This document shows positions 18,542-63,432 of a stretch of DNA of 64,000 bases, one piece after another. The stretch spans positions 1-64,000 of the forward strand of contig CACZMF010000010.1 in NCBI GenBank assembly GCA_902782225.1, given 5' to 3'. The DNA is from an uncultured Bacteroidia bacterium. Its GTDB lineage: Bacteria > Bacteroidota > Bacteroidia > Bacteroidales > UBA932. The notes beneath the pieces are model-generated. The model saw only the letters and a program-made list of their open reading frames with translations, did no database searches and had not been told where the DNA came from. The translations under genes and the position numbers were made by a program. Position 1 is the first letter of the stretch, and each line of letters starts with the position of its first letter.

Positions 18542-18664
18542 ATGACCAGATACAAAGCACCTGAAGCCTCTGAGCTGGAGGCGGTTCTGAGCGGACTGCT
18601 CTGCGACAGCATGACCGGATCCTCAATGGAGGATTTCACTGAATCCGAAACGATTGAATGGTAG
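18542..18664 (+). CDS. Small cassette peptide A (40 aa)
   Basis: A 40-aa reading frame, ATG at 18542 and TAG at 18664. No signal peptide or membrane helix. It shows the pattern shared with three other small frames here: Y4xxP7, L19-L20-C21-D-S23-x-T-G26, E30-D31-F32 and a C-terminal Trp40. The stop is 11 nt before the ATG of the fimbrillin-like lipoprotein at 18676, with a purine-rich GGAGGCGG in between, so the two are probably translated together. Function unknown. Small Bacteroidales proteins with YxxP and LLxxS patterns exist, but I know of no assigned role. The conservation of pattern and spacing with 32371-32508 and 35497-35634 is the main support for it being a gene. Confidence 0.7.
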   Translation: MTRYKAPEASELEAVLSGLLCDSMTGSSMEDFTESETIEW

Positions 18665-18675
18665 GAGGCGGCGAT

Positions 18676-21099
18676 ATGAAAAAGTACTTGATCATCATGC
18701 TTGCGGTCCTCGCTTCCGCATCCTGCGCCAAAGAGCAGTTCCAGCCCATTGAGACCGGATCCGGCATACAATTCCGCTTCGAGGCCGCCACCGAAGGCAC
18801 CAAAGCCTACCTGACGGACGATTTCAAGATTTGCTGGGAGCAGGCCAAAGACGCCGTGTCCGTGTTCGCAAAGACCGACAACTGCCGTTTCGAGGCCGTG
18901 ACCACCGGCACTTCCACCTGGCTGGAGGGCACTCTCAGCCAGGTCACGTCCACGTATTACGCCCTCTATCCCTATAATGCAGACGCGACCAATTCCACCG
19001 GTTCCATCACCACTACCCTCCCCGCAGAGCAGAAAGCTGTACTCAACCAGTTCAGCAACATAGTCGCCGTGGCCGCGACCAAGGAAAAGAGCCTGCTCTT
19101 CCAGCCCTGCGTGTGCCTCGTGGAAGTGGACCTTGCCACCCAGGGCGTCCACACCATCAGCTTCCGGGGCAACAACGGTGAGCTCATCGCCGGCACGATC
19201 CGCATGAGCGCAGGCACCAAAGACGACAATGATCCCAATCCCGTGGTCGTGGAAGGAATCAAGGAAGTGAGCATTTCCGACGGCGGCAGCGAACTGCAGC
19301 CCGGCAAATACTACATCGCCGTGGCTCCCCAGATGTTCACAAAGGGTGTCACCATAAGCATCAAGGGCAGTGCCGGCTCGGCTGAGAAAGTCACGTCCAA
19401 ACCCGTGGCGGCAGGCCGCAGCAAGCGCCTGCTCGCCGGCACGATCGACCTTCCCCTTGTCCCGGAAGACAGCTCGTTCTCAATGACTTATGCCGACGGA
19501 GACATCCAGGGCACCGTTTACCCCGGCGCTCCCAGACAGATTGTCTACTCCTACTCAGGCACCCGTAATCTCCAGTACCATATCAACAGCGACGCCCCCG
19601 TCAGCATCGAGTACTTCATGGACGGCTCCCAGAGTTCGGCGTCGGAAGCGACCGGACGGCTTGCCGGACCCGTCAGCCTGGGCGGTTCGGTCATAGACCT
19701 GCTTCCAGTGGCCGGCAGCGGCGGAGAAAACGACAACGTGCGCCGGCTCAGGGCAGCTTCGCCCAGAGGCAGCTATGGCGATCCCGTGAATCTGACCACC
19801 GACAACAACAGTCTGTTCGGCGGAGGCCGTTCCGGGTCCAACACCGCCAACTGCTACGTGGTCAGGACTCCGGGCTGGTACTCATTCCCGCTGGTCTATG
19901 GCAACGCCATCAAGGGCGGCAATGCCAACCCCGGCGCCTACTCCCCTTCCGTGAGCGGGACCACCGTGCTTTCCCCCTTCATAGACAGCAGCGGCAACGC
20001 CATCACCTCTCCCTATATCAGCAATGCCGTCTCGGCCCGCCTGGAATGGGAAGATGCCGTCGGCCTCATCGAAGAGCTGGAGCTTCGCGGCAGCGATGCT
20101 AATTCCCTCGGCATCGCCTTCCGCGTGCCGCAGGAGACGATACGCGAAGGCAACGCCCTCATCAGCGCCATCGACGCCTCCGGGCAGGTGGTCTGGAGCT
20201 GGCACATCTGGGTCAGCGGCGCCCCCGATTCCGATTTTGCACCAGTGAGCGTGACCAACAAGGCCTCGCAGAGCTTCTCCCTTGCCCGAATCAACGTGGG
20301 CTGGGTGGCGCCATACGACTCCCCCATCGTCTTTGAAGGCCGCACCACCGGCATCCGCATCACCCAGCAGGGCAGCGGAAAGACCCTGGAATTCACCCTC
20401 GTGCAGACCGGAGCCACGCTACCCGCCAACGCCACCGGCACCTGCCCCTTCTACCAGTGGGGCCGCAAGGATCCTTTCGTGGCAGGCAACGGCGAGGTGG
20501 TCGAGGACGCGAGCCTGGACTGCCCCAAGAAGACTTGGTACACCACAGAGCGCCGCGACACCGTGGGCACGCGTGCGGCCCGCCTTGGCAAGGACATCGC
20601 CGCCTACATAAGCCATCCCACCCACTACAATATGGATTCCGGCGGCGACGGCAAGTACTCCAACCTCTGGAATGCCACACAGGCCAAGTTCTCGTCGTCC
20701 AGCACCGCCGCCGAGAATGCCGCTGCCGTGGTCAAGACCGTCTACGACCCCTGCCCCGTGGGTGCATGCCTGCCTCCCATCGGCGCGATGACGGGATTCT
20801 CCAACGCCAACACTGCCGGCGGCTTCGACCTTGGCTTTGCGTTCTATTCCAATCCCGACAAGACCGGGGAGACGGTGTTCTACCCTGCAGTCGGTTCCAT
20901 GGCCACCAGCAACCTGACATCCACCAAGGTGTTCGGCACCATGCGCAACTCCGGCACCGGCTTCTCCTACTGGGCGGCGAACGCCAACAACGCCACGAGC
21001 GGCTTCAACATGAACTGCTACAACAAGGGCACGGTCAACACCGGCTACGGCAGCAACCGCCAGTACGTCTATCCCATACGTCCCGCAATCTACAATTAG
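18676..21099 (+). CDS. Fimbrillin-like lipoprotein with C-terminal FISUMP-like domain
   Basis: 807 aa from the ATG at 18676, preceded by GGAGGCGG; a GTA/ATG-rich stretch 18 nt upstream is less likely. Lipobox SASC (Cys17). The N-terminal half is a fimbrillin/Mfa-like domain: EGTKAYLTDDFKICWEQAKD, then YYALYPYNAD and a YYIAVAPQMF strand. The middle has Ig-like strands. The last about 260 residues carry CPFYQWGRKDPF, VYDPCPVGACLPPIGAMTGF and YPIRPAIYN, the layout of the Fibrobacter-succinogenes-major-paralogue type C-terminal domain found in many Bacteroidota surface proteins. Likely outer-membrane anchored and surface displayed. It heads the protease/TonB operon, so it may be a binding or structural partner. 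Ligand unknown. Confidence 0.8.
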   Translation: MKKYLIIMLAVLASASCAKEQFQPIETGSGIQFRFEAATEGTKAYLTDDFKICWEQAKDAVSVFAKTDNCRFEAVTTGTSTWLEGTLSQVTSTYYALYPYNADATNSTGSITTTLPAEQKAVLNQFSNIVAVAATKEKSLLFQPCVCLVEVDLATQGVHTISFRGNNGELIAGTIRMSAGTKDDNDPNPVVVEGIKEVSISDGGSELQPGKYYIAVAPQMFTKGVTISIKGSAGSAEKVTSKPVAAGRSKRLLAGTIDLPLVPEDSSFSMTYADGDIQGTVYPGAPRQIVYSYSGTRNLQYHINSDAPVSIEYFMDGSQSSASEATGRLAGPVSLGGSVIDLLPVAGSGGENDNVRRLRAASPRGSYGDPVNLTTDNNSLFGGGRSGSNTANCYVVRTPGWYSFPLVYGNAIKGGNANPGAYSPSVSGTTVLSPFIDSSGNAITSPYISNAVSARLEWEDAVGLIEELELRGSDANSLGIAFRVPQETIREGNALISAIDASGQVVWSWHIWVSGAPDSDFAPVSVTNKASQSFSLARINVGWVAPYDSPIVFEGRTTGIRITQQGSGKTLEFTLVQTGATLPANATGTCPFYQWGRKDPFVAGNGEVVEDASLDCPKKTWYTTERRDTVGTRAARLGKDIAAYISHPTHYNMDSGGDGKYSNLWNATQAKFSSSSTAAENAAAVVKTVYDPCPVGACLPPIGAMTGFSNANTAGGFDLGFAFYSNPDKTGETVFYPAVGSMATSNLTSTKVFGTMRNSGTGFSYWAANANNATSGFNMNCYNKGTVNTGYGSNRQYVYPIRPAIYN

Positions 21100-21101
21100 C
21101 C

Positions 21102-23186
21102 ATGAACAGAGCACATTGCATTATCCTCGCCCTCTGCCTTGGGGCAGCCGTCCTTCAGCCTGCCGACGCCGCCTGCCGCCGCAAGCCTTTCGCCGTGGTG
21201 GTGGACGGGGCGTGCTATGAAGCAGTGGCAGGATCCGTGAAGCACTATGCCGATGCAGTGGCTGCCCGCGACAGCCGTCAGGTATTCGTGGTGGTGACGG
21301 GCAGCGACTGGACGCCGCAGACTATTCGCGACACCCTGCAGACCCTCTACGTCAAGAAAAAGCTGGAGGGAGCCGTGCTCGTGGGCGATATCCCCGTGCC
21401 GATGATACGGCGCGCCCACCACCTCGCCACGGCCTTCAAGATGAACCCGGCCATGCCCGTGAAGCGTTCTTCCATACCTTCGGACCGCTTCTACGACGAC
21501 TTCGGCCTGCGTTTCGACTTCCTCGACGCCGACGGCAAGCTATTCTACTACGACCTCTCCCCCGAAGGCCGGCAGAGAGTGCAGTGCGACATCTACACGG
21601 CCCGCGTAAAGCCCTCCAAGGCAGATCCGGACTATAGTTTCGAAGAGCTGATCTGCGAGTTCCTCGACCGGGCGGCGCGGACTGCATCCGGCACCGAGCC
21701 CCTCGACAACGTGTTCCACTTCGGCGGCCACGGCAACAGTTCCGAAAGCATCAACGCCCGAATCGACGAAGACCGCGCCTTCTACGAGCAGTTCGGCCTT
21801 GCCGGCTCCGGCGAGCGGGTGCGTTACCTTAATTTCGACGAGGAGCGCTTCGTGCGCAAGCGCCTGATGTCCGCCCTTTCCGACCCGGAGGTGGATTTCG
21901 CCCACCTCCACACCCACGGCGGCGTGGGCGCCCAGTACATAAGCAAGGAGCCCTACACCTTCATGACCAATGAGCACATAGAGAACGCCAAGGCCTTCTT
22001 CCGCTCCAAGATGCGCAGCGCCAAAGACAAGGAAAAGGCCGCAGCATCCCTGATGAAGTCCTACGACATTCCTGCAAGCTGGCTCGAAGGATGGGACGAC
22101 AAGGCCGTGACGGCAAAAGACTCGCTCCGCTCCGCTTCCGTGGACATAACGCTCCTCGACCTGGACGGCTACAGGAGCGCAGCGAAACTCATCCTGCTGG
22201 ACGCCTGCTTCAACGGGGCTTTCCTCCACGACGACTATGTGGCCGCACGCTACGCCTTCGGCCACGGCAGCCGCACGATCGCCGTGACCGGCAACTCGGT
22301 GAACATCATCCAGGACCACTGGAAGAACGAACTTGCCGGCCTGCTGAAGGCGGGCTGTTCCGTCGGGGAATGGGCCAGGAACTATATGACGCTCGAATCC
22401 CACCTCTTCGGCGACCCCACCTTCCGTTTCGCCGCCTCAGGCAAAAAGGGGCCAGATGCCCGGAAGGCAAAAGCCATCCACGACGGCAGATACGCCCCTG
22501 AAAAGTGCCTTGCGCTGATGGACGACAGTTCGATGAACGTGCGTCTTGAGGCCTTCTACTACATACTTCGGGAAGGTTCATACGAAACCCTGTGCAACGC
22601 GGTCTGCAAGGGCCTGGACGACCCGTACGAAATGCTCCGCCGCATGGCTGCACGATACGCCGAGACCCTTGGCGAAAAGGAACTGCTTCCCGTGATCGCC
22701 TCGCATTATCTCGACCCTATGGAGACCGCCCGCGTGCGCTACCACCTGTTTGCCGCTTTCAGCCAGTATGGGGCGGACGAAGTGGAAGCCGCCCTCCAGG
22801 CAGCCTGGGACGGCATCTGGCCAGAGCCCGCAGAGCTTGAGACGCTCAAGGCAAGGCTGCGCCGAAGCATCACCGCATCCGACGCCGAAATCGCCGGCCT
22901 CGCAGACGCTTCCGTGAGTCTCAAAGACAGGATTTCCACCGTCAGCGCCCAGCGCAACGCAAATCTCACGGCAGCCGTGGAGCCGATGCTTGGCCTGGTG
23001 GCCGACGAGGCCGCCGCCAAAGAGCTGCGCTGCAAGGCTGCGGAAGCCCTGGGATGGTACACCAGATCCGTCCAAAGCGAGCATATATATCAGTCCCTTA
23101 AGAAGATACAGATATCTGACGGAGACGTTGCCGACGAAGTGCGACGGACCCTCAGAAGACTCGAAGACAATGCACATATCAGGTAA
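21102..23186 (+). CDS. Secreted gingipain-like (C25-like) cysteine protease with helical repeats
   Basis: 694 aa, ATG at 21102, 2 nt after the previous stop. Signal peptide (residues 1-23, ending ADA). The catalytic region (about 28-445) looks like the caspase-fold clan CD: GAVLVGDIPVP (about 90-100), FHFGGHGNSSES with His210, HLHTHGG with His272, LILLDACFNGAF with the candidate nucleophile Cys369, and the closing HLFGDPTFRF block common in C25 proteins. Residues about 470-690 are helical and HEAT-like (LMDDSSMNVRLEAFYYIL, LDDPYEMLRRMAARYAE). No Por-type C-terminal sorting domain is seen, so it may stay periplasmic or be secreted another way. It overlaps the next gene by 17 nt. Which His pairs with Cys369 is uncertain. 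Confidence 0.72.
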   Translation: MNRAHCIILALCLGAAVLQPADAACRRKPFAVVVDGACYEAVAGSVKHYADAVAARDSRQVFVVVTGSDWTPQTIRDTLQTLYVKKKLEGAVLVGDIPVPMIRRAHHLATAFKMNPAMPVKRSSIPSDRFYDDFGLRFDFLDADGKLFYYDLSPEGRQRVQCDIYTARVKPSKADPDYSFEELICEFLDRAARTASGTEPLDNVFHFGGHGNSSESINARIDEDRAFYEQFGLAGSGERVRYLNFDEERFVRKRLMSALSDPEVDFAHLHTHGGVGAQYISKEPYTFMTNEHIENAKAFFRSKMRSAKDKEKAAASLMKSYDIPASWLEGWDDKAVTAKDSLRSASVDITLLDLDGYRSAAKLILLDACFNGAFLHDDYVAARYAFGHGSRTIAVTGNSVNIIQDHWKNELAGLLKAGCSVGEWARNYMTLESHLFGDPTFRFAASGKKGPDARKAKAIHDGRYAPEKCLALMDDSSMNVRLEAFYYILREGSYETLCNAVCKGLDDPYEMLRRMAARYAETLGEKELLPVIASHYLDPMETARVRYHLFAAFSQYGADEVEAALQAAWDGIWPEPAELETLKARLRRSITASDAEIAGLADASVSLKDRISTVSAQRNANLTAAVEPMLGLVADEAAAKELRCKAAEALGWYTRSVQSEHIYQSLKKIQISDGDVADEVRRTLRRLEDNAHIR

Positions 23187-25974: not shown

Positions 25975-27176
25975 AGAAGATCATTCTGGCCGCCCTCGTG
26001 CTGGCGGCATTCTGCGCATGTGACAAGACCCCGAAGGTAGTCACCGTGAAATGGCTGGTAGAAATCGACGAATCAGCTCTGGGCGACGCTCCGAGCCCCG
26101 GCGCCTACAAGGTCAGCCTCACCAACATCGGCACAGAGGAGGTTAAGGAGATCTCCGTCGTCGGCACCCGCTCCGAGGCCATCGACATACTCCCGGGAGT
26201 GTACAACATCACCGCCCAGGCCCACGGCTCGCTGGGCGGAAAGGCCTACAACTACATCGGCAGCCTGAGCAGCGTGACGATTTCCGGCCTGCAGGACGAA
26301 CTGGTGTCTATAGTCGAGGTCTCCGCCACGGCATCTTCCGCCCTGGTGTTCAAGGAGATACACTACAATGCCAGCATGGTGTCCGGCTCTGCGAGCGCCC
26401 GCTACCTCAAAGACTCTTTCTTCGAGATCTACAACAATTCCGAAGAGACGGTCTACGCCGACGGCATTTGCCTCGGCGACGTGCTGAGCCACAAGGTCTA
26501 TGACTTCTCGGACAAGCTCCCCAACGCTTCCGACTACGTGTTCATGGGCACCTACGTCTGGCAGATTCCCGGCAGCGGCAAGGACTACCCCATCGCTCCA
26601 GGAGAGTCGTTCGTCATAGCCGCATCGGCAATCGACCACAGCAAGACTGCCGAGAGCCTCGACCTTTCCACCGCCGAATTCGAGACCATATGCGACAAAT
26701 ACAAGGAAAAAGGCGGCCAGCCCGACGCCAACGCCGTGAACATGGCCCTTGTCTGCACCATCAAGGAAAGCGGACTGGGCAACCAGTTTGGAAGGTTCAC
26801 CGACGCCGCCTGGGCACTGTTCTACCCGTCCGTGCCCCTTCGCAAGGACGGCGAGTACCTGGAGTCCAACCACGCCAACAACTACGGCCTTGAGGTGCTC
26901 AAAACCGACATTCTTGATGCCATCGACCTGCTGAAGACCGAGAATCCGGACGACAAGCGCCTCGAGCCCGTGCTTGACGCGGGCTGGATCAAGTGCGCCA
27001 CCACCGGCGGCAACCAGAGCGTGGTACGCAAGGTGGAATCCACACGCGCAGACGGCTCGATAATCCTCCAGGACACCAACAACACCACCGTGGATTTCAC
27101 GGTCAACGACAAGCCCGAAATCCGCCGCTACGGCGTGAAACGTCCTTCCTGGAGCACCTGGACCACGGCACAATGA
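25971..27176 (+). CDS. DUF4876-type lipoprotein
   Basis: 401 aa, ATG overlapping the receptor stop (ATGA). The lipobox is FCAC (Cys15). An N-terminal Ig-like domain (about 20-115, LTNIGTEEVKEISV, LPGVYNITAQAHG) precedes a domain with KEIHYNASMVSG, FFEIYNNSEETVYADGICLGD, which is the lamin-tail-like block I associate with DUF4876. It is known to be encoded beside a TonB receptor and a DUF6850 barrel in Bacteroidota, as here. The family has no experimentally assigned function that I know. Family call is from memory of the pattern, not a search. Confidence 0.7.
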   Translation: MKKIILAALVLAAFCACDKTPKVVTVKWLVEIDESALGDAPSPGAYKVSLTNIGTEEVKEISVVGTRSEAIDILPGVYNITAQAHGSLGGKAYNYIGSLSSVTISGLQDELVSIVEVSATASSALVFKEIHYNASMVSGSASARYLKDSFFEIYNNSEETVYADGICLGDVLSHKVYDFSDKLPNASDYVFMGTYVWQIPGSGKDYPIAPGESFVIAASAIDHSKTAESLDLSTAEFETICDKYKEKGGQPDANAVNMALVCTIKESGLGNQFGRFTDAAWALFYPSVPLRKDGEYLESNHANNYGLEVLKTDILDAIDLLKTENPDDKRLEPVLDAGWIKCATTGGNQSVVRKVESTRADGSIILQDTNNTTVDFTVNDKPEIRRYGVKRPSWSTWTTAQ

Positions 27177-28749: not shown

Positions 28750-31700
28750 TTAGTCTGCCTTGCGGATGCAACGCAGCTCCATTCCGTGGAGATAGTTGCC
28801 GTAGCTCAGCATAAGCTTGCCAAGAGGACTGGCGGCGGTGAAAGTGCTCATCATACAGAAGTACTGCACATTGTTGCCTGCCGCGTTAGGCATGTAAGGC
28901 GTAGAGCACATGACCTGGTTGAGTGCGGGCTTGCCGACCCACTCGGAAACTGAGCAGGTGTTTTCCTTGGTTGCAGCCGCGTTATATTTTCCAGTCTGCG
29001 ACAGGCTGGTCTTGGCACGTACTCCGAGGAACGCGAAATTCCATCCGGCGTCATTGAACGCAGGAATGCTGGAGCCCGAATACGCAGCGACCCAATACAC
29101 GGCGCTGGCGTCTGCCACAGCAGAAGTCTCGGGATTCACCGGCAGGGAGTCATCTTTGTTGGAAGCGCCAACGAGTTTCAGGAAGTCTGCACGGGTAGGG
29201 ATGTACCAGCCCGGAGGGCAGATGCCCTGGACGCCTTCGAAGTCGCGGAAGTTGCCAATAACTGCGCCGGCCTGATATTCAGCCTTGGTGCCATAGGTGA
29301 TTGCATCCTGGGCAACACCGAAAGCGGTAGGATAATCGTAGAGGTAGCCGTCTTTGAAATCGGTCCTTGCGGTCGTGTTGGTGCCGTCGGTAGTGTAGGT
29401 GTACCATATACCTGCATCCTCGACAGGGTCGGAGGAAACGGTCTTTCCTTCAGGCACATAGGCCATAGGAGCAGCCATCCACCAGCGGCCGTCGGCAAGC
29501 TTCACGAGAGGGTACTCCTTCCCGTGGTAGGTGAACTTGTTGTTCGCCAGATCCTCGACGAATACGGGAGCCTTGAAATTAGTGTATATAACGTGAAGAC
29601 CGGAAGTGTTATTCTTTGAGCCGCTGACAAGGGACTCGAAATTGGTAGCGTCCACAGTAGTACCGTTAACGGAACCGGCTACCGAGATAGGTGATTCTGT
29701 CGTACCGAGGACAATATCCTTATCGTCGCCGTTGAACAGACCTACCACGAGACCGGTAGCATCAGCAGGTCCGCCTATCAATGTGCAGTCCACGGAACAT
29801 CCGTCCATACCGGTGAATGCTACGTTGCCCAGATTGCCCACAAGGCCGCCAAGAGCATTGATAGTGCACTGCGCTTCCACGGTGCCTCCGGCGGTACAGT
29901 TGGAGAAGGTATGAGCCTGGCTGTGGAAACCTGCAATGGAACCGGCGACAGAACCGGAATCTGCACTTATAATGGTAATTTTTCCTGTGTTGCTGCATCC
30001 GTCCATACGGCCTGTGCCGCCATGGATACCGCCGGCACGGATTTTAATACCTGCTCCTTCATAAGTGATGTCTCCGGAATTGTTGCAGTTCTTTGCAGTA
30101 TACGGAGTCGAAGAATTTTCAGAACCAGGCCAGCCGGAAATACCGCCGATGGCATTGTTGGTCGAATGGGTATTGTCGGTCTTGTAATACAGGTTGCCGG
30201 TGTTGTTGCAATTCTCAAGGGTAAACTTGTTGAGTTTGTTGTTGTCTGTACCTCCGCTTGTAGTCGTTCCGCTGAAATTGTATCCAGAACCGACGATACC
30301 GCCGATATAGAAGGTATAACCCGCATTCTTGGGAGTGAAAGCAGTACCGTTGCCCAGAACGACAGACACATCTCCGTGGTTGTCGCAACCTGTCATAGGA
30401 CCGGAGCAGTCGCCGACCAGGCCGCCAACCGAAGGACGTGCGGCGGTGTGGGTACCGTCGGTGCTGGAAGGATTGTTGAGAGTCAGGCTGACCTTGCCAA
30501 AATTCTCACAATCGGTAAACACGGGATTCGTGCCGGTTGCGGACACAAGGCCACCGGCAGTCAAACCGGCAGTGATGGCATTTGTACCATTATAAACTTT
30601 AGAGTTGATATCACCGATACCATTACGGCCGTTGATACGGGCAGCAGTCACGGTCACGTCGCCACGGTTCACGCAGCCGGACATGGTGTTGCTTGCAAAA
30701 TAGCCCGCAATACCTGCAACGAAGGTAGCTTTCAGGGATGCACCGGACTGGAACGTGATCTTGCCGGTGTTCACGCAATCGGTAGTGGCACCTGTGGTGT
30801 AGCTGGACACACCGGCGAGGCAAAGTGCTGCCTCATGCCCGGCGCAGATGAAAGACACGTTTCCGGTGTTCTTCACCTTGATATTGTTGCTGCCATTGGT
30901 GGTTCCGCCTGCGACACCGCCCATGTAGAAGTTCTTGGTATTAGTTCCCGAGCAGGTTATCGAAAGAGCACCGTTATTGATGCATTCACTCAAGTTGTTA
31001 AGTGTCGAGCCACCCATGGAACCGACTATGGTTCCGACATACTGGGTACCGCCGGTATTGGCAACAGTAGTGATGATCATATCACCGTTATTGACACAGT
31101 TCTCAATGGTCAGGGCATCACTCGCAGAGGGGGATGTCGATACACCGACAATGGCGCCGAGACGGCCGCCCTTGAAATTCACATCGGTGCCGCTGATATC
31201 GGCATTATTGGTGATACCGCAGACCCTTCCGAGGTTGCTTACCACGACAAATGCGAAGTTGGTAATTTCGGCGGGAAGAGAGAGCTGGCAGCTTGCATCG
31301 AGCGTGAAATCCTTCACGGTTCCCTTGTTTTCAGCGAACAGTGCCGTGCCGTTGGAGGTCCAGTTCTTCAGGCTGAGGCCCTGGCCGTCGAAGGTGCCGG
31401 CGAAAGACGTTGCAGTGGGGAGAGTGACTCCGGTCAGGTCGATGTCGGACGTAAGCCTCACTTCCTCATCAGCCTTATAGGAGGCTGCGTTGTTGAGGAA
31501 GAACACCAGTTCATCGGCATTTGAGATATTCTGGATCATGCTGACCGCCTTTGCGTTGGTGGCGACATCGCCAAGGTCAATCACCTGATTGCGCTGGAAT
31601 TCTCCTTCAGCGTCAGTGGAGAGCACCTTGATGGAGCCGCCGACATAGGAACGCACGGTGAAACCCTTGTAGGCCCCGGGAGCGATTGCGGCGTAGTAGA

Positions 31701-32358
31701 CCTGATCCTTGACAAAGCCATCCACGCACGCAATTTCGATGGAAGAAGAAACTGCATCGGCAGGGGCGATAGCGGGAGCTGCATCAGCGTCCACAGTCAC
31801 GGACACTTCTCCGGAGAGGGATCCGGCCGTGTCGGCGGAAATCTTCACCCTGCTAACTCCGTCCACGCCCACCGTGAATTTCAGGAGGGTGGGGATGTTC
31901 TTGAAGGTCGGAACTGCAGTTGCATCGGCAAAGTATGCCACGGAGGCAAGGGCATCCGGGTCGACGCTCTGGCTGGGAAGGACACGCTGATCCGTGATAT
32001 CCATCTTCACCACTTTTTCCTTGTCCCAGGTCACGGCCTTCTCATAGGGATAAGCCGCAACGAAACTGGTAGTTCCTTCGGGGACCGAACCCTCGATCTT
32101 CACGGAAGTTCCTTCAACTTTGGTGACGCTGAATTCATTGGGCTCGACAGATGCCGGAGTGAACACAGCAACTTTCTCACCGACTTCCCACACGACCTGT
32201 TTGCCGTTGAGAGAGGCTTTGGAATCTACATCGCACTGGGCGGTAAGGGTCAGCTGGACGTAACCGGGTTTAACGGCTACTTCTTCTTTTGCAATCTCCT
32301 TCTTGCAGGAGACAAGGGCAGCAATCGCAATCGCTGCAAAGAACAAATACTTCTTCAT
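28750..32358 (-). CDS. Giant fimbrillin-like/GLUG lipoprotein with FISUMP-like tail (paralogue 1)
   Basis: 1202 aa. Start at 32358 chosen for the clean lipoprotein signal (MKKYLFFAA ... LVSC); an ATG 9 nt upstream is possible. N-terminal fimbrillin-like domain to about 255 (DSKASLNGKQVVWEVGEKV, VAAYPYEKAV, YYAAIAPGAY). The middle, about 290-930, is a long series of GLUG-like repeats (GGLVG/GGIVG ... CxNxGxV), predicted beta-helix. The last 250 residues form an FISUMP-like domain (DGRWWMAAPMAYVPEG, GVQGICPPGWYIPTRADFLK, GMELRCIRK). The repeat part is closely similar to the neighbour at 32667-35483, which lacks the tail. It follows small peptide B by 12 nt. Role inferred: surface adhesion or binding. 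Confidence 0.85.
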   Translation of the reverse strand: MKKYLFFAAIAIAALVSCKKEIAKEEVAVKPGYVQLTLTAQCDVDSKASLNGKQVVWEVGEKVAVFTPASVEPNEFSVTKVEGTSVKIEGSVPEGTTSFVAAYPYEKAVTWDKEKVVKMDITDQRVLPSQSVDPDALASVAYFADATAVPTFKNIPTLLKFTVGVDGVSRVKISADTAGSLSGEVSVTVDADAAPAIAPADAVSSSIEIACVDGFVKDQVYYAAIAPGAYKGFTVRSYVGGSIKVLSTDAEGEFQRNQVIDLGDVATNAKAVSMIQNISNADELVFFLNNAASYKADEEVRLTSDIDLTGVTLPTATSFAGTFDGQGLSLKNWTSNGTALFAENKGTVKDFTLDASCQLSLPAEITNFAFVVVSNLGRVCGITNNADISGTDVNFKGGRLGAIVGVSTSPSASDALTIENCVNNGDMIITTVANTGGTQYVGTIVGSMGGSTLNNLSECINNGALSITCSGTNTKNFYMGGVAGGTTNGSNNIKVKNTGNVSFICAGHEAALCLAGVSSYTTGATTDCVNTGKITFQSGASLKATFVAGIAGYFASNTMSGCVNRGDVTVTAARINGRNGIGDINSKVYNGTNAITAGLTAGGLVSATGTNPVFTDCENFGKVSLTLNNPSSTDGTHTAARPSVGGLVGDCSGPMTGCDNHGDVSVVLGNGTAFTPKNAGYTFYIGGIVGSGYNFSGTTTSGGTDNNKLNKFTLENCNNTGNLYYKTDNTHSTNNAIGGISGWPGSENSSTPYTAKNCNNSGDITYEGAGIKIRAGGIHGGTGRMDGCSNTGKITIISADSGSVAGSIAGFHSQAHTFSNCTAGGTVEAQCTINALGGLVGNLGNVAFTGMDGCSVDCTLIGGPADATGLVVGLFNGDDKDIVLGTTESPISVAGSVNGTTVDATNFESLVSGSKNNTSGLHVIYTNFKAPVFVEDLANNKFTYHGKEYPLVKLADGRWWMAAPMAYVPEGKTVSSDPVEDAGIWYTYTTDGTNTTARTDFKDGYLYDYPTAFGVAQDAITYGTKAEYQAGAVIGNFRDFEGVQGICPPGWYIPTRADFLKLVGASNKDDSLPVNPETSAVADASAVYWVAAYSGSSIPAFNDAGWNFAFLGVRAKTSLSQTGKYNAAATKENTCSVSEWVGKPALNQVMCSTPYMPNAAGNNVQYFCMMSTFTAASPLGKLMLSYGNYLHGMELRCIRKAD

Positions 32359-32370
32359 AGCGCTCATCGA

Positions 32371-32508
32371 TTACCAGTTAAACGGGACATCATCAGTATA
32401 ATCCTCTGTACCCCCAGTAGGACTCTGGCAGAGAAGGGCCTCCAGGCACTCCTCCGCTGTTTCACAAACCGGGGCGGTGTAGGCCCCGAAAAATGCTTTT
32501 TTGACCAT
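32371..32508 (-). CDS. Small cassette peptide B (45 aa)
   Basis: ATG at 32508, TAA ending at 32371, 45 aa. Same length as peptide C and the same pattern: Y10xxP13, C15, L25-L26-C27-Q-S29-P-T-G32, E35-D36-Y37 and terminal Trp45. N-terminal Lys-Lys, no signal peptide. The stop is 12 nt before the chosen ATG of the giant lipoprotein. A TATATTTG box lies about 60 nt upstream. Function unknown. Confidence 0.75.
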   Translation of the reverse strand: MVKKAFFGAYTAPVCETAEECLEALLCQSPTGGTEDYTDDVPFNW

Positions 32509-32666: not shown

Positions 32667-35483
32667 TCAGAAACTTGCGTAGACGGTATGCGCTTCCGAA
32701 CTGTATCCGGTAGCACCACAGAGCAGGTCTGCATAGTTGCCTGCGGTCACAGCGGTGCCGTTCACGGAACCGGCGACCTTGATAGGGTTCTCAGAGGTGC
32801 CGAGGGTGATGGTCTTCGTGCCGTTGAAATAGCCGACCACAAGACCGGTCTTGCCGTCAGGGCCTCCGGTGAGGGTGCAGTTGACGGAGCATCCTTCCAT
32901 ACCGGAGAACTCGACGTTGCCCAGGTTGCCCACGATGCCGCCGAGAGCGTTGCAGGGAACTTCGGCCACGACTGAGCCTTCAGCGGAGCAGCCGGTCAGG
33001 GTGTGGGCCTGGCTGTGGAAGCCGGCAAGGCTGCCGAGCACGGATCCGCTCTGGCCGGATTCGAGCTTGATGATGCCGGTGTTGACGCAACCTTCCATAC
33101 GGCCTGTGCCGCCGTGGATACCGCCAATCCTGCACTTGCAGTTGCCCTTGCCGGTGATGTTGCCGGAGTTGCGGCAATTGCGGGCCACATAGACCGCCGT
33201 CTGGTCCTCAGACTGGGGCCAGCCGACTATACCGCCATAGGCGTGGTTGGTGGTGTGGTCGTTGTCGGTATATACCGTCACGTTTCCGCTGTTGTTGCAG
33301 GACTCCAGCGTGAAATTGTTGGCATAATTGGTGTCCTTGCCGCCTGAAGTCTTGGCTCCGCTCCAGTTGTAGCTGGATCCGACGATACCGCCCACGTAGA
33401 GGGTATAACCGGCATTCCTGCCCGTGAACGAAGTCCCGCCGTTGTTGATGGACACATTCACGTCGCCATAGTTGTTGCAGTTGGTCATCGGGCCGGAGCA
33501 GTCGCCCACGAGGCCGCCCATCGAAGGACGTGCAGCAGTGTGGGTGCCATAAGTTGTACTGCCTCCGTCCGTAGGATCGGTCAGGGTGAGGGTCACAGTG
33601 CCGTGGTTGTCCGAGTTCTCGAACACAGGATTCTTTCCTGTTGCGGACACGAGGCCACCGATCGTGAGGCCCGCAGCAATCGCATTGGTGCCGACATAGG
33701 CTTTGCTGTTGATGTCGCCGATACCGTTACGGCCGTTGATGAAACCGCCCTGGACGGTCACGGCGCCGCGGTTCACGCAGCCGGACATGGTGTTGCTGGC
33801 GAAGTAGCCTGCAATACCTGCGCAGAAAGTCGCCTTGATGTTCTTCTCGCTGATATATGACACCGCGCCTGTGTTCTCGCAGTCGATGACGCTTCCGGTC
33901 GTGTAGCTGGTGATACCGGCAATGATCATTGCGCAGTCGTGGCCCTTGCAGTTGAACGTGATGTCGCCGGTGTTCTTCAGGCGCAGGTTGTCGGAGCCGT
34001 TGGTGGTGCCGCCGGCAACGCCGCCGATGTAGAAATTGCTGGTGTCGATACCGGTATGGGTGATGGTAATCTTACCATTGTTGGTGCAGTCCTTCAGCAT
34101 ATTGTCATCGGAATAGCCCATAGATCCGACAATGGTGCCGATATACTGGGTGCCGCCGGTATTTGCCGTACCGGTGATGGTGAGATTGCCGTTGTTGACA
34201 CAGCTGTCGATGGTGATTCCGCGCTCGAGGCCAGTTGCATCGCAAAGACCCACGATGATGGCAGTGCGGCCGGCAGCATAGGAATCGATAGTGCCGGTCA
34301 CGTCGGCGTTATTGATGATGTTTGCCACCATGCCGGTGCAGGTCTTTGCAACGAATGCGAAAGCTCCGGAGAGCGTGGAAGGGAGGGTCAGATTGCAGCT
34401 CGCATCGATGACAAGGCCCTCGATCACGCCAGTGTTGGTGCCGAACAGGGCCACACCGTCGGAGGTCCAGTTCTTAAGGCTGCAGCCCTGGCCGTGGAAC
34501 TGGCCGGCCCAGCTTTCAGCTGTGGTGAGCGTGATACCGGACAGGTCGATGTCGCCTCCGAGATACACCTCGTCGTCCTGCGTGTAGGTGGATGCCTCTG
34601 CAAGGAATTCCTTAAGCTCCTCGCCGGTTGTGATAAACTCATACTTGAAGGCCACATCCTTCAGGGCGTCGCCGACGTTGTAGCCCTTGTTGCGTTCGAA
34701 GGCCTTGACTCCTTCGGACGTCCTGTGCCCGGACTTGCCGCCTGCCTTGGCAATCATCATAAAATCCTTGGCCTCGGGGCAGGGAGGCACGACAGCGTAG
34801 TACTTCTTGTCCTTCGCAAAGCCTTCGTTGGTGAAAACGGTGGTGGCGAAACCTCCCACGAGGTTGGTCACGACGGGAGCGTCGCTGCTGGTGCTCACCT
34901 CCACGGAGATATCTCCGGGAGCATATTCGGTGCTGGTGAAATCAGTGGCGAACACAACACCGTTGACGCCAGTGACGTTGCTCATCTCGAACTCGATCAT
35001 CGAGAACACGTTCTTGAACTGGGCCTTGGCGGATGCGCTGGCAAAATAGGCCACGGAAGACATAGCAGAAGGGTCGATAGTGCCTCCGGCAGGAAGATCC
35101 TGAACATCCGGAATATGCATGTTGACCACGTTGCCGCTGCGGCTGACGGCCTGGGCGGCGGGATACACGGCAATGAAAGATTCGGTGCCGGCAGGCACGG
35201 AGCCGCTGAGCTTCACGGCATCGAAATCCACTGCTGTGACCGTGAAGGTCTCGGCAGTCGTCGAAGCGTCGGGATACACGGCGACCTGGTCGCCGACGGC
35301 CCAGACCACGGTGTTGCCGTCGAGGACGGCCTTGGAACCGGCCTCGAGGCCGGCGGTGAGGGAAACTTCCACATAGCCGTCACGGACGGGAGCTACGGGA
35401 ATTTCATCGACTGATGCGGCCTCCTTCTGGCAGGAGACGAGCGCGGCACATGCAATCGCCGCAAAAGCAAAATACTTCTTCAT
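32667..35483 (-). CDS. Giant fimbrillin-like/GLUG lipoprotein (paralogue 2)
   Basis: 938 aa. I chose the ATG at 35483 (MKKYFAFAA ... LVSC lipobox); upstream in-frame starts would add a charged leader. N-terminal fimbrillin-like domain to about 280 (GSKAVLDGNTVVWAVGDQV, FIAVYPAAQAV, YYAVVPPCPEAK). About 310-935 is the GLUG-like repeat region, many blocks nearly identical to the neighbour (SGCVNRGAVTV, INGRNGIGDINSKAY, FHSQAHTLTGCS). It ends where the other paralogue continues into its C-terminal domain, so it is the tail-less copy. Follows small peptide C by 13 nt. Likely a surface beta-helix adhesin or binding protein; ligand unknown. Confidence 0.85.
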   Translation of the reverse strand: MKKYFAFAAIACAALVSCQKEAASVDEIPVAPVRDGYVEVSLTAGLEAGSKAVLDGNTVVWAVGDQVAVYPDASTTAETFTVTAVDFDAVKLSGSVPAGTESFIAVYPAAQAVSRSGNVVNMHIPDVQDLPAGGTIDPSAMSSVAYFASASAKAQFKNVFSMIEFEMSNVTGVNGVVFATDFTSTEYAPGDISVEVSTSSDAPVVTNLVGGFATTVFTNEGFAKDKKYYAVVPPCPEAKDFMMIAKAGGKSGHRTSEGVKAFERNKGYNVGDALKDVAFKYEFITTGEELKEFLAEASTYTQDDEVYLGGDIDLSGITLTTAESWAGQFHGQGCSLKNWTSDGVALFGTNTGVIEGLVIDASCNLTLPSTLSGAFAFVAKTCTGMVANIINNADVTGTIDSYAAGRTAIIVGLCDATGLERGITIDSCVNNGNLTITGTANTGGTQYIGTIVGSMGYSDDNMLKDCTNNGKITITHTGIDTSNFYIGGVAGGTTNGSDNLRLKNTGDITFNCKGHDCAMIIAGITSYTTGSVIDCENTGAVSYISEKNIKATFCAGIAGYFASNTMSGCVNRGAVTVQGGFINGRNGIGDINSKAYVGTNAIAAGLTIGGLVSATGKNPVFENSDNHGTVTLTLTDPTDGGSTTYGTHTAARPSMGGLVGDCSGPMTNCNNYGDVNVSINNGGTSFTGRNAGYTLYVGGIVGSSYNWSGAKTSGGKDTNYANNFTLESCNNSGNVTVYTDNDHTTNHAYGGIVGWPQSEDQTAVYVARNCRNSGNITGKGNCKCRIGGIHGGTGRMEGCVNTGIIKLESGQSGSVLGSLAGFHSQAHTLTGCSAEGSVVAEVPCNALGGIVGNLGNVEFSGMEGCSVNCTLTGGPDGKTGLVVGYFNGTKTITLGTSENPIKVAGSVNGTAVTAGNYADLLCGATGYSSEAHTVYASF

Positions 35484-35496: not shown

Positions 35497-35634
35497 TTAC
35501 CAGGTGAAATCTTCAAAGCCGCCGAAATCTTCGGTCATGCCTTCAGGGCTCTCGCAGAGAACGCTTTCGCAATACTTCTCCGACAGTTCACAGAAAGGAG
35601 CGACATAGGCTCCGGAAGTGTGTTTTTTTAGCAT
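35497..35634 (-). CDS. Small cassette peptide C (45 aa)
   Basis: ATG at 35634, TAA ending at 35497, 45 aa. Pattern: Lys-Lys near the N-terminus, Y10xxP13, C15, V25-L26-C27-E-S29-P-E-G32, E35-D36-F37 and terminal Trp45. It aligns without gaps to peptide B. It starts 36 nt after the PHP phosphodiesterase stop and ends 13 nt before the lipoprotein ATG. No promoter-like box is seen in the 36-nt gap, so it is probably read from the phosphodiesterase promoter. Function unknown. Confidence 0.75.
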   Translation of the reverse strand: MLKKHTSGAYVAPFCELSEKYCESVLCESPEGMTEDFGGFEDFTW

Positions 35635-60064: not shown

Positions 60065-60085
60065 ACTTTCAGTTTTTAGGAGATA

Positions 60086-60093: not shown

Positions 60094-60218
60094 CGTGAAA
60101 AATACGTAAATATTGGCCGCTGGCACAAAACTGCACTGACAGTAGAGATTTCATAGGGAAATCGGCTGCATCATTCCCGATCGGAAGGAGAATCGGCCAT
60201 GCTGACTGATAATTGCCC

Positions 60219-60332: not shown

Positions 60333-60384
60333 TGGAGAATGACTACAAGAATGCACTCGCAGCCATTGAGCGGATGAAATGCTC

Positions 60385-60600
60385 TTAAACGCCGTCGGTG
60401 CCGTCTTCCCGGTGCTTGCGCTCGTAGGCGAGCAGTTTGGCGTCCTCATAGCGGGAGCGGTTTTCGTCGAACTGGCGGTCCCATTCGCGGTAGTACTCCA
60501 TCTTCGGGTCCTCGAAGAGCGACATCTGGATGGCGGATTCGTGGGTAAGCTTGCTCACGCCGAGGCCGACCTGGCGGAGAGGGGTGACGCCGTCCCACCG
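60385..60600 (-). pseudogene. C-terminal remnant of a Y-family DNA polymerase (dinB/umuC)
   Basis: About 71 codons survive: WDGVTPLRQVGLGVSKLTHE, then QMSLFEDPK and a basic C-terminal tail to the TAA at 60385. The first block is the conserved little-finger motif of DNA polymerase IV/V and the QxSLF is its beta-clamp-binding site. Upstream of about 60600 the frame continues for 50 codons but has no polymerase similarity, and the palm, fingers and thumb are missing. So this is a 5'-truncated relic. Confidence 0.68.
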
Positions 60601-60671
60601 ATGAAGCAGGGTAGGAGCATTCCGCCCCATTTTTGCTCCTACCGTTCCACCAAAGAAGCAGGGTAGGAGCA
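60590..60671. repeat. 30-bp direct repeat with internal inverted repeats
   Basis: Copies at 60590-60619 and 60642-60671 match at 27 of 30 positions, and share the exact 17-mer GAAGCAGGGTAGGAGCA. GTAGGAGCA at 60611-60619 is also a perfect inverted repeat of TGCTCCTAC at 60634-60642. This lies exactly where the dinB-like similarity stops. The 60672-60894 stretch is A/T-rich with no gene; a weak promoter-like TATATTTA is at 60798. Confidence 0.7.
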
Positions 60672-60894
60672 CTCTACCCCAATATGTTAAAAAGGTGTTT
60701 ATAAAAAACCGGCAACTTTTTCTAAAGAAAAAATTGGAATCCACCTCCAAAATTTGTAATTTGGCAACTTGAAATGAGGGTATAGCAAATCAAACGTTAT
60801 ATTTAGACGGCGGCGCGCCCATAGCGCCAATGCTTAAGGCGTAGATGATACCCGCGTAAGATGTTGATTATTTATACTTTAAACACATAACATT

Positions 60895-61056
60895 ATGGAC
60901 AAAAACAAAGCGACGTATGAACGTCCTACAACCAATCTGCTCGTGGTACGATTCGAGCAGGGTCTTTTAACTGGCAGCCCTTATGGAACGAGAGGAGCCG
61001 CCGGTGGCACGATGAGCGTCAATAACCTTGGCGATACTGATGAAGATCTCTATTAA
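60895..61056 (+). CDS. Small cassette peptide D (53 aa)
   Basis: ATG at 60895, TAA at 61054-61056, 53 aa. Looser member of the set: Y8xxP11, L24-L25-T-G-S28-P-Y-G31, an acidic end (DTDEDLY) with a terminal aromatic Tyr. It lacks the Cys and terminal Trp of peptides A-C. The stop is 12 nt before the lipoprotein ATG at 61069, the same spacing as in the other three pairs. Function unknown. Confidence 0.62.
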   Translation: MDKNKATYERPTTNLLVVRFEQGLLTGSPYGTRGAAGGTMSVNNLGDTDEDLY

Positions 61057-61068
61057 TCCTGCAGCCTT

Positions 61069-63432
61069 ATGAAGAATTTGTTTAGAATCCTGTGTGGCCT
61101 GTCGATAGTCGGTATTGCCACAGTTGCTTGCAACAAAGAGATTGAAAAAGAGGTTGCTCCCGAAACCCCTGTCATTTCCAAACACAGTGTAAAGGTGAAG
61201 GCTGGTTTCTCTGAGGAGACCAAGACAGTTATGCTTAGTTCTGGCGATCAGACCAAATGGACGGCTGGTGATGATGTCAATATGCATTTCTTTGAAAATG
61301 GTATTGCTCCAGATCCCAACGACTTAGCTGTATCTCTTAACGCGGAGGAGACAGAATTGACCATTATGGCTGAATTCGCTAACACATCTGCCACCAAGTA
61401 CGTCTATACGTCTATCCTCGCGTCCAATCTTGATGCAGAAGGGAATGCAACGATACCTGCTGCCCAGGATATTTTGGACGGCACTTTTGATCCCGATGCT
61501 GATGTCCTTGTAGCAAAGCCTGAAGAGTTCGCCGCAAGTCAGAGCCTTGAGGAGTTTACAATGCAGTACAAACGTGTTGTGGCTGTTAATAAGATTAAGA
61601 TTAAGGGGCTTACCGCAGGCGACAAAATATCCTCTGTTACTATAAGCTCGAACAAGCCTTTCCTGGGCTCCTATAGTATGACTAATGATGCTTGGACCAA
61701 TAGCGGAAATGAGCTGAACTTGAATGCAACATCAGAACCCATCACAGTTCCTACCAGCGGCGAGGTCTCTCTCTGGTTCATCACTGCTCCAGTGTCTGAT
61801 GCTACCCTTTCAATCTATGTCGTGACTGACAATCACCAGTATGAGAAGGATTTCACAAAGACCATATCCTTTGCCGCCAACACTGTAACTTCTTTTGCAA
61901 CTACAGTTGCTGCAAGTGAAGTTGGTACTGGTGGTGGTGATTTTGTTAAGTTCACTTCTACAGCAGGTATTGAGGCTGGTGAGTATGTTCTTGTTCACGA
62001 AGATAATTCTTCTCCGAAGATTTTTACAGGCGTTAGCTCATCTTCTTATGGAATTGGTGAAAATGTAACTATTGATGAAAATAAGATACTCAATGAGAAC
62101 GTCAGTGCATCATCCGTTCTCACTGTTGCGGCAGCAAGTGAAGGAACAGCGTGGGTAATCAAGCAAGGGAGTTCATTCTTTAATTGGAGTTCCGGTAACT
62201 CTTTGACTTTTGCTACCAGCGAAAGTAATAATACAAGATGGACTATTTCATTCGATAACAGTGGAAATGCAACAATAGCAAACGTTTCCGATTCCAATCG
62301 CAAACTTCAGTGGAATAGTAGCAACCCTCGTTTTGCGTGCTACACATCGTCACAAGCCAAGGTTCAGTTATATAAGAGGGAGGCAGGTGGACTTGCTAAA
62401 TCTGCTCTTGCCAAACCTATTGTGACTCTGGAGCGCAACGCTACTAAGGACGGAATCATCGTTTCTTGGGCTGATGTCAACAAGGCAGGCAGTTACACGG
62501 TAACCTGCACAGGTCAGGAGCCCAAAACCATTGATCAAGGAATCCAAACAGCCGAATTTACAAATCTTGATCCCTCAAACTACACTGTTACTGTTACTGC
62601 AAACCCCGCTAATGCAGATCGCAATACAGCTACCACTTCTGACGAGGTAAGTATTGAGATTTATAATTACAATCTTGTTGCGCCTACCATGTCCTTCGTC
62701 GCTGGTGATGATAATATTGTTGTCTCTTGGAATGCTATCCCGAATGCTTCAAGTTATACTTATTGTGTTTTGAAAGGAGAAGAGGTGGTAGTGGCTGAAA
62801 CCACTATTCAGGGAACCACTTTCACGGCTAGTAACTTAGCAGATAACACCGAATATACATTTAAGATTAAGTCTATTGGCGAAGGTGATTTCATATCTTC
62901 GGATTATGCCGTTCAGCAACAGAGTACTCTAGAGCTCAAGCCTGGTAGTAAAAAGACTTATTCTATCTCGAGTTCTACATCCGCCGCTAATTCTTTTAAC
63001 AAGTTATTTGGTGGCACAAATAATAGTGCCGTTACTGTTAACCATGTTACCAATAAGCAAATTACCCTTAACTCTGATAGCTGGTTCATTACAACTACAG
63101 GTAACGGCACCGTAATATATGCATCTGGTCAACAATTAGGAGCAAAAGCAAGTAGCAATGTCATTCGTGATATCACATCTTTGACGATGTCAACAGCTGC
63201 ATATACTGACCGTATTAGTAATGTAACAGTTAACACACAATCAAATGGCGAAACGACGCTATCGTTGTATGTCAATGATGTTTTAATTGACACTAAAGAT
63301 ATTACTAGTGCCGCTACTGACTATACATTCACTTTGTCAGAATTGACCAAGGGTAGTATTAAACTTGTTTGGAATAATAGTTTGGCTAGTAAGAGTATTA
63401 CTTTGGCCTCAATTACGATTAACAATGATTGA
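61069..63432 (+). CDS. Fimbrillin-like lipoprotein with FN3 domains, low GC
   Basis: 787 aa. Lipobox TVAC (Cys21). N-terminal fimbrillin-like domain to about 285 (EETKTVMLSSGDQTKWTAGDDV, VYTSILASN, SLWFITAPVSD). Two FN3-like domains lie near 435-530 and 540-625 (IIVSWADVNKAGSYTV, IVVSWNAIPNASSYTY). The last 160 residues form a beta-sandwich ending KSITLASITINND. Its bases are markedly more A/T-rich than those of all neighbouring genes, especially after about 61900. The reading frame ends at a TGA just before a GGSGG-type linker and a nuclease remnant, so it was probably once the front of a longer protein. Confidence 0.8.
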   Translation: MKNLFRILCGLSIVGIATVACNKEIEKEVAPETPVISKHSVKVKAGFSEETKTVMLSSGDQTKWTAGDDVNMHFFENGIAPDPNDLAVSLNAEETELTIMAEFANTSATKYVYTSILASNLDAEGNATIPAAQDILDGTFDPDADVLVAKPEEFAASQSLEEFTMQYKRVVAVNKIKIKGLTAGDKISSVTISSNKPFLGSYSMTNDAWTNSGNELNLNATSEPITVPTSGEVSLWFITAPVSDATLSIYVVTDNHQYEKDFTKTISFAANTVTSFATTVAASEVGTGGGDFVKFTSTAGIEAGEYVLVHEDNSSPKIFTGVSSSSYGIGENVTIDENKILNENVSASSVLTVAAASEGTAWVIKQGSSFFNWSSGNSLTFATSESNNTRWTISFDNSGNATIANVSDSNRKLQWNSSNPRFACYTSSQAKVQLYKREAGGLAKSALAKPIVTLERNATKDGIIVSWADVNKAGSYTVTCTGQEPKTIDQGIQTAEFTNLDPSNYTVTVTANPANADRNTATTSDEVSIEIYNYNLVAPTMSFVAGDDNIVVSWNAIPNASSYTYCVLKGEEVVVAETTIQGTTFTASNLADNTEYTFKIKSIGEGDFISSDYAVQQQSTLELKPGSKKTYSISSSTSAANSFNKLFGGTNNSAVTVNHVTNKQITLNSDSWFITTTGNGTVIYASGQQLGAKASSNVIRDITSLTMSTAAYTDRISNVTVNTQSNGETTLSLYVNDVLIDTKDITSAATDYTFTLSELTKGSIKLVWNNSLASKSITLASITINND

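Follow-up and report, generated by a model that had tools for sequence, protein, structure and literature searches.

Linear polyphosphorylated peptides (LPPs), described in 2026 from Bacilli, are ribosomally synthesized and post-translationally modified peptides (RiPPs) encoded in Paenibacillus alginolyticus DSM5050 by the genes lppA, K, B, S, D and N (PMC13381572). As set out in the main text of that paper, the precursor carries a YxxP leader and is served by a discrete RiPP recognition element (RRE), LppB, an NTP transferase, LppN, and the MsbA-like LppD, with no cyclase; the HprK-like LppK adds several phosphates to core Ser3, and the SipW-like LppS cleaves after T-1 and before A1-Q2-S3, an activity abolished by S29A, H68A or D93A (PMC13381572). 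The role of LPPs is unknown; the discussion of that paper restricts them to Bacillota, although most rather than all of its peptidase hits fall there, and the string "bacteroid" does not occur in its main text (PMC13381572, Nat Commun 2026). Here we consider the first 64,000 nucleotides (the window) of contig CACZMF010000010.1, from an uncultured Bacteroidales bacterium with a genome of 2.58 Mb (G000; other genomes are numbered likewise, and loci read in context carry L numbers). Four short open reading frames (ORFs) in the window each precede a gene for a large fimbrillin-like lipoprotein, and the encoded peptides are probably LPP-type RiPP precursors, matured in trans and exported. The LPP kind itself is known; new here are the phylum, the many dispersed precursors and a pairing with surface adhesins that is almost one to one.

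All four short ORFs are present where the initial annotation had placed them, on strands that it left unstated, and the gaps it gave of 11, 12, 13 and 12 nt match lipoprotein start codons at 18676, 32358, 35483 and 61069. Peptide A (18542..18664, forward strand, 40 aa) carries YKAP at residues 4-7 of a predicted leader (residues 1-20), then a predicted core from C21 with the conserved Ser23; partner A (18676..21099, forward, 807 aa) begins 11 nt past its stop. Peptides B (32371..32508, reverse strand, 45 aa, YTAP) and C (35497..35634, reverse, 45 aa, YVAP) both have a predicted core from C27 and the conserved Ser29, and are followed after 12 and 13 nt by partner B (28750..32358, reverse, 1202 aa, C-terminal FISUMP) and partner C (32667..35483, reverse, 938 aa). 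In peptide D (60895..61056, forward, 53 aa, YERP), Thr replaces Cys at the second residue before the conserved Ser28, which lies 17 residues from the Pro, and partner D (61069..63432, forward, 787 aa), with an FN3 domain, starts 12 nt past the stop. The leader/core boundary was set by analogy with LppA as it is presented in the main text (PMC13381572). The motifs YxxP and (L/V)L(C/T)xS(P/M)xG occur in all four peptides, and the E-D-(F/Y) step and terminal Trp in A-C, just as had been proposed. The peptides have no significant match in Pfam or NCBIfam and no significant relative in the PDB (best E 0.84).

These peptides share a fixed geometry. All 92 distinct peptides found by profile, 36-54 residues in length, fit Y..P followed by Ser, at a Pro-to-Ser distance of 16 in 82, 17 in 8 and 15 in 2. 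In a larger set of 113, whose rows were picked by the Ser so that its invariance there arises by construction, 109 could be fitted and 95 have the distance of 16, as do 19 of 22 peptides from other Bacteroidales. Cys stands two residues ahead of the Ser in 82 of the 92, and the Ser itself is encoded by AGY in 71 and by TCN in 21. The tail after the Ser, 14-26 residues long, is strongly acidic (439 Asp/Glu against 22 Lys/Arg among 1648 residues), and an aromatic residue falls within the final six positions of 84 peptides. The first core position is C in 89/109 peptides of the window's genus and A in 19/22 elsewhere, the second is Q in 41/109, and the commonest predicted core starts are C-Q-S or A-x-S. 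With LPPs, as far as the main text presents them, these peptides share the YxxP leader, a conserved Ser shortly past the cleavage site and a variable C-terminus. Of the Bacillota consensus YxxPxVLxHQxIxFETxxS (PMC13381572), however, they keep only YxxP and Ser; the Pro-to-Ser distance is 16, one more than the 15 of the printed consensus, the predicted cut follows Leu or Ile (in other genera also Phe) where LPPs have Thr, and most Bacteroidales precursors, in a different phylum, are coupled to a fimbrillin-like lipoprotein.

This coupling was followed through the window's own genome from both sides. Searched with a profile of the four window peptides, G000 gave 20 matches at an E threshold of 10, the last one lying within a longer protein; a profile of 19 rows raised the number to 33. 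Among 30 matches read in context, 28 have a lipoprotein or fimbrillin-like protein downstream, recognized by rule or by eye. In addition, the search was anchored on the partners, because the peptide itself is thereby kept out of the query: 15 partner N-termini, searched against G000 at E up to 0.01, gave 78 matches, 77 of them distinct, which were scanned for an ORF of 25-75 aa containing [YFWH]xxP, 14-16 residues and Ser, and ending between -50 and +20 nt of the lipoprotein ATG. Such an ORF precedes 47 of the 77 fimbrillin-like matches, several of these ORFs being absent from the peptide-profile listings; for the lowest few of the 77, similarity covers little beyond the signal peptide. In control regions (the window, the operon regions and 80 named loci described below), where the control script left the gene of partner A uncalled, the motif stands before 9 of 813 other gene starts (L391 among these being a family member by eye) and before 7 of 112 lipoprotein-like starts, all seven family members by eye and including window peptides B, C and D. 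The arrangement of peptide and lipoprotein in G000 exceeds chance. One peptide (C15:301) precedes a fimbrillin-like protein without a lipobox, and another (L006, G000:C8:50040-50147) stands ahead of a secreted metallo-beta-lactamase-like protein, named by eye. The 77 matches in 2.58 Mb also represent a large adhesin repertoire in their own right.

Within the genus, at least 40 of 61 genomes, G000 counted, have a listed match to the 19-row profile with an E value of 0.01 or lower. Outside G000, and again among the matches listed (a few identical in sequence), 63 of the 65 contexts read are peptide-lipoprotein cassettes; the rule passed 63, from which one orphan peptide (G023:C15:85814) was removed because what the rule picked up belonged to the following cassette, 260 nt further along, and L092 was added by eye. 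That orphan, near L079, likely reflects loss of the partner, as the G047 homologue retains one, and a further orphan (L099) has nothing downstream. At L088 (G004:C70) the partner is a thioredoxin-like lipoprotein, named by eye. Across Bacteroidales, a 52-row profile matches 11 of 247 genomes and a broader 43-row profile 17 of 247. A lipoprotein lies downstream by rule in 13/18 contexts from the former; for the latter it is next in 5/16 by rule and in 7 by eye, with three false matches in long frames and five orphans. A further set, overlapping these, has a lipoprotein downstream in 11/17 contexts, six of the 17 coming from G068 of the window's genus, where some peptides lie inside operons after another lipoprotein. 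Peptides at L236, L276 and L277 (G075, G243) follow a large secreted-protein gene, with nothing close behind on that strand. At L140 in G274 (about 1501-1760) a YxxP peptide and the signal sequence of a fimbrillin-like lipoprotein are joined in one continuous frame, possibly an assembly artefact.

The short frames evolve as proteins. In 18 pairs selected by partner identity, the peptide has a pN/pS of 0.36 (leader 0.35, tail 0.38), an uncorrected value from non-independent pairs with high pS. Frame conservation had been named beforehand as the test of these ORFs, and this value points to protein-level constraint; among the matches listed, three contain a stop, and both of those that were read overlie an intact peptide. 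Placement at random relative to lipoprotein genes, the other outcome that had been thought fatal, is contradicted by the 47/77 partner-anchored matches and the 63/65 contexts. Additionally, the tail varies with the partner: in 85 cassettes, tail similarity correlates with similarity of the partner mature domain at r=0.65, and at 0.64 with leader similarity removed, and for distant pairs the value is 0.30 for the tail versus -0.02 for the leader. Correlation of the tail with the signal peptide is weak (r=0.35 in the 85 cassettes) and non-significant in G000 alone (p=0.19). The suggestion that the peptide is a dedicated partner of the lipoprotein fits these data, with usually one peptide per lipoprotein and a tail that follows the mature domain of the partner. 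A promoter box found in 42/95, without a control, was given no weight.

In lasso peptide systems the YxxP leader is recognized by a PqqD-type element, and RRE-linked enzymes were therefore looked for. Every one of the 15 peptide-bearing genomes tested has PqqD; so do 3 of 14 named genomes used as controls, including one Bacteroides. In G000 it belongs to an operon on a contig separate from the window (G000:C5, about 36.7-39.9 kb; region L286) that encodes an HPrK-like protein (295 aa), a SipW/S24-like peptidase (152 aa), PqqD (89 aa) and an ABC exporter (544 aa). The PqqD regions of ten of the 15 genomes were read (G000, G023, G038, G047, G109, G243, G068, G247, G163 and G075), and all four genes were present each time, in varied order; NTP_transf_5 also lies beside the set in G109 and G243 (by Pfam) and in G075 and others (by our own profile). 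PqqD scores over the Pfam cut-off, and a PDB search with its profile gave a single match with E of 0.01 or lower, to TfuB1, the RRE of the lasso peptide fusilassin. In the peptidase, the Ser (GxSMxP), His-Arg and Gly-Asp-Gly are invariant in 11 of 11 sequences; its profile matches Sec11 and signal peptidase IB (E 0.0002 to 0.006), and the match to the archaeal signal peptidase model TIGR02228 (E 2.6e-5) is below cut-off. The HPrK-like protein belongs to no Pfam family and has a weak, below-cut-off match to ScmC, while its structural model (pLDDT 88) matches the folds of PEPCK (E 2e-6) and HprK/P (E 4e-5). The exporter has ABC_membrane and ABC_tran over cut-off, with CydC and MsbA models matching about equally and both below their cut-offs. 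Named relatives of the HPrK-like protein come from rumen Bacteroidales (RGIG8139, 92% identity), Candidatus Cryptobacteroides (61%) and the cultured species Paraprevotella xylaniphila (47%), and in 80 named loci our own profiles found HPrK-like 80, peptidase 77, PqqD 73, ABC 53 and NTP_transf_5 13 times. G247 and G163, which belong to one genus, have a similar protein of about 250 aa encoded between the PqqD and HPrK-like genes (L288 7755-8537 in G247; L334 7021-7761 in G163). Ten other Bacteroidales PqqD loci (L293-L302) have mostly sulfotransferase or lasso B2-like neighbours by eye and represent a different RRE class.

This gene set resembles that of LPPs, as presented in the main text, in its discrete RRE, HprK-like kinase, SipW-like peptidase and ABC exporter and, in some genomes, in an NTP transferase (PMC13381572). 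Clusters for phosphorylated lasso peptides also contain PqqD, HPrK-like, nucleotidyltransferase and ABC genes (PMC8498205, PMC10368454), and in one such system the RRE is reported to accelerate the kinase (PMC10368454). The phosphorylated and phosphoglycosylated lasso peptides (paeninodin, pseudomycoidin, Bsf) share with the Bacteroidales system a YxxP or WxxP leader, B1 (PqqD), the K kinase, the D exporter and, in some genomes, the N nucleotidyltransferase; the Bacteroidales system differs in having a SipW-like peptidase, with B2 (PF13471) unmatched in G000 and no C cyclase recognized in the operon regions read. The lasso B2 leader peptidase PF13471 has no match in G000 and matches 2 of 61 genus genomes (G013, G044). 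A macrolactam cyclase was not recognized by eye in the operon regions read, and no genome-wide search for one was made. Peptidase_C39 (PF03412) is absent from G000 and matches just 2 of the 15 peptide-bearing genomes (G247, G109), and C39-type export of the peptides was rejected on that ground.

Peptides and machinery occur together across the order. In a sample of 247 Bacteroidales genomes, 17 had a peptide match at an E threshold of 0.05; three of these (G121, G195, G221) were dropped as matches inside long unrelated frames, leaving 14 peptide-positive genomes and 233 others. The HPrK-like profile hits 34 genomes, with a gap in score between 16 at E 4e-38 or better and the next at 9.8e-27. 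A high-scoring HPrK-like gene is carried by 12 of the 14 peptide-positive genomes versus 4 of the 233 others (p=2e-15), and by 7/9 versus 4/233 once the five genomes that seeded the profile are removed (p=1.3e-9), although these genomes are related by descent and the p-values overstate their independence. The 12 genomes with both elements span nine families, and two of the four exceptions do hold a peptide, G262 beside the operon and G220 with the usual motif spacing and an E value of 0.22.

Physical linkage is seen in a few genomes. In G262 (L340), a peptide (4292-4429), its lipoprotein (4477-6462), and the HPrK-like, peptidase, PqqD, NTP_transf_5 and ABC genes follow one another on one strand. 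In G075 (L333) a peptide heads an operon of HPrK-like, peptidase, PqqD, NTP_transf_5 and ABC genes, and in G163 (L334) the order is peptide, lipoprotein, ABC, peptidase, PqqD, HPrK-like. A cassette lies 3.6 kb past the HPrK-like gene in G282 (L335), another follows the operon and one intervening gene at L377, and at L391 a divergent peptide adjoins the HPrK-like gene, ahead of a gene for a secreted protein that by rule is not a lipoprotein. Since precursors are not adjacent at most operon loci, and the G000 operon is on another contig than the window, the operon must act in trans.

Taking together, at the level of sequence, the peptide family, its coupling to lipoproteins, the constraint on its frames, the operon, the co-occurrence and the linkage in a few genomes, we propose that each short ORF encodes a precursor peptide that matures into a linear, LPP-type RiPP. 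The N-terminal YxxP half would be the leader, bound by the stand-alone PqqD as RRE; the HPrK-like kinase would phosphorylate the conserved Ser, which corresponds to Ser3 of the LppA core; the SipW-like Ser-His peptidase would cut directly ahead of the (A/C)xS triplet; and the ABC exporter would release a core made of the triplet and the acidic tail of 14-26 residues. By analogy with the Paenibacillus system as its main text describes it, recognition, phosphorylation, cleavage and export along these lines are likely (PMC13381572). A single operon on G000:C5 would serve the dispersed precursors in trans, and the close gene coupling would cause peptide and adhesin to be made together. Once exported, the peptide would most likely act at the cell surface, on its own lipoprotein or together with it. 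This functional pairing is the weakest step, and the balance for and against it is about even. On the widest reading, which is somewhat less likely than not, a single LPP operon would process in trans, and send out, about fifty different short peptides, phosphorylated and perhaps glycosylated, and each of them would serve its own fimbrillin-like surface lipoprotein as a cognate ligand, plug or strand.

Several observations weigh against this proposal. NTP_transf_5 (PF14907) was not found in the operon region L286 of G000, the rest of that genome being unsearched; in G139 the set is split, with HPrK-S26 and PqqD-NTP5-ABC at two places, G282 lacks S26 or ABC beside the rest, and G274 has only HPrK and NTP5. 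Single peptidase and HPrK-like sequences score below the curated Pfam and NCBIfam cut-offs. G131 and G218 carry the operon, and no peptide was found in them on a closer look; conversely, G094 lacks a high-scoring HPrK gene, with a PqqD-NTP5-ABC run on a 5.3 kb contig, and G206, likewise without a high-scoring HPrK gene, has no PqqD, NTP5 or ABC match, its peptide frame lacking an ATG before the motif. PqqD alone is a weak marker, present in 156 of 247 genomes (13/14 peptide-positive versus 143/233 others, p=0.02), and an automatic scan found a precursor within 2.5 kb in only 1 of 80 named loci, to which a looser scan adds L391. According to the main text of the LPP paper, clusters in Bacilli have 1-3 precursors and the studied core has 45 residues, compared with dozens of dispersed precursors and predicted cores of 17-29 residues here (PMC13381572). 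A peptide is missing at 30 of the 77 fimbrillin-like matches in G000. Evolution is also faster in the peptide than in its partner (pN/pS 0.36 versus 0.26), and the covariation of tail and partner may reflect the shared duplication history of the cassettes, falling short of proof of contact.

LPP-type peptides might merely be co-expressed with the lipoprotein and serve as an independent signal or antimicrobial, a reading that overlaps with the first half of the one proposed here. RiPPs often function away from their producer, and the orphans (L099, G023:C15:85814), the peptides that follow a secreted-protein gene (G075, G243) or head an operon (G075), and the varied partners, such as those at L088 and L006, all agree with it. 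The pairing with a lipoprotein in 63/65 same-genus contexts among the matches listed, and in 13/18, 5/16 (7 by eye) and 11/17 of the overlapping wider sets, and the covariation of tail and mature domain (r=0.65) argue the other way, leaving an independent product possible but somewhat doubtful. That same covariation, together with a mostly single peptide per lipoprotein, the weak dependence on the signal peptide noted above and the lack of any signal peptide seen by eye in the peptides themselves, would suit a peptide that stays unprocessed in the cytosol and serves the lipoprotein as a dedicated chaperone or secretion helper. Such a helper is improbable, however, given a leader-like motif at fixed spacing and the RRE, kinase-like, peptidase-like and exporter genes of peptide-bearing genomes; the acidic tail is, moreover, unlike the usual chaperone-substrate motifs. 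Lasso peptides would account for the YxxP leaders and for the PqqD, HPrK-like, nucleotidyltransferase and ABC genes, which occur together in phosphorylated lasso clusters as far as the sources consulted describe them (PMC8498205, PMC10368454), but PF13471 is unmatched in G000 and in the peptide-rich genus genomes, and by eye there is neither a cyclase in the operon regions read nor an Asp or Glu at a fixed ring position. We regard the lasso reading as very improbable.

The initial annotation had also offered a translated leader that controls the lipoprotein, in which case the peptide product would be minor and the ORF would open the lipoprotein start by translational coupling or act as a sensor during translation. 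The tight gap (median 13 nt over 87 cassettes) speaks for this, as does the predicted openness of the peptide start, which exceeds that of the lipoprotein start (0.574 versus 0.435, 84 cassettes), and 15 of the 30 peptide-less matches have an open frame of at least 110 codons, unverified as a gene, that ends within 34 nt upstream. The fixed protein geometry, the pN/pS of 0.36 and the use of both AGY (71) and TCN (21) codons for the Ser are hard to reconcile with it, though, and peptides co-occur with the HPrK-like gene and in some cases lie inside operons, after the last gene or at the head of the maturation operon (G075). Sequestration of the lipoprotein start is no greater than in shuffled upstream sequence (0.435 versus 0.435, p=0.65, 84 cassettes), by which RNA attenuation or sequestration was rejected, and a leader cistron is unlikely, if less so than a chaperone. 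Programmed read-through into the lipoprotein was discarded because gaps of 11, 12, 13 and 14 nt all occur, so that no frame is kept. Cleavage after the conserved Ser, at a small-x-small signal-peptidase site, had likewise been considered for the precursors and was dropped, as LppS cuts before A1-Q2-S3 according to the main text (PMC13381572). Of the earlier interpretation, then, the dedicated partner fits, a donor strand or inhibitor is possible and the translated leader is disfavoured, and the RRE-type signature of the leader and the matching machinery elsewhere in the genome had been missed.

If the LPP reading with cognate lipoproteins is true, LPPs in Bacteroidales would be structural or regulatory parts of the cell surface instead of diffusible antibiotics, and the tie to adhesins gives a lead to a cell-surface job for a class described in Bacilli with no known role. 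Several Bacteroidales families hold a gene set of this kind, in which most precursors are each tied to one surface adhesin; as a RiPP system it combines scattered precursors with single-copy enzymes. It adds a large family of small proteins that lacks a Pfam or NCBIfam model, and it offers a handle on an adhesin repertoire that numbers about seventy fimbrillin-like lipoproteins in 2.6 Mb. A literature search found no description of these peptides in Bacteroidales, which is the sole basis for calling them unpublished.

Regarding the partners themselves, all four had been described as starting with a fimbrillin-like domain, which is borne out by fold for partner B and by sequence likeness for partners A, C and D. 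The model of partner B residues 1-330 (pLDDT 86.5) has as its best PDB match the Bacteroides cell-adhesion protein 3ufi (E 8.5e-8; TM 0.43 on the query), with the Bacteroides cell-adhesion proteins 4k4k and 4dgu also among the best, and it matches Porphyromonas gingivalis Mfa4 and Mfa2 weakly (E 0.03 and 0.07). The N-terminal fold of partner B, and its nature as a lipoprotein precursor, are of the kind seen in type V pilus fimbrillins and in the Bacteroides adhesion proteins 3ufi and 4k4k. To our knowledge, no small precursor has been described upstream in the classical fim and mfa operons. Of the C-terminal modules that had been assigned, the only ones that Pfam recovered at E up to 1 are the FISUMP of partner B and the FN3 of partner D. 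It gave no support for GLUG or the nuclease remnant, and no domain match in partners A and C. Elsewhere in the window, two TonB-dependent-receptor-like proteins and one DUF6850 protein are encoded at 4962-8537 (reverse strand), 22990-25971 (forward) and 26993-28696 (forward).

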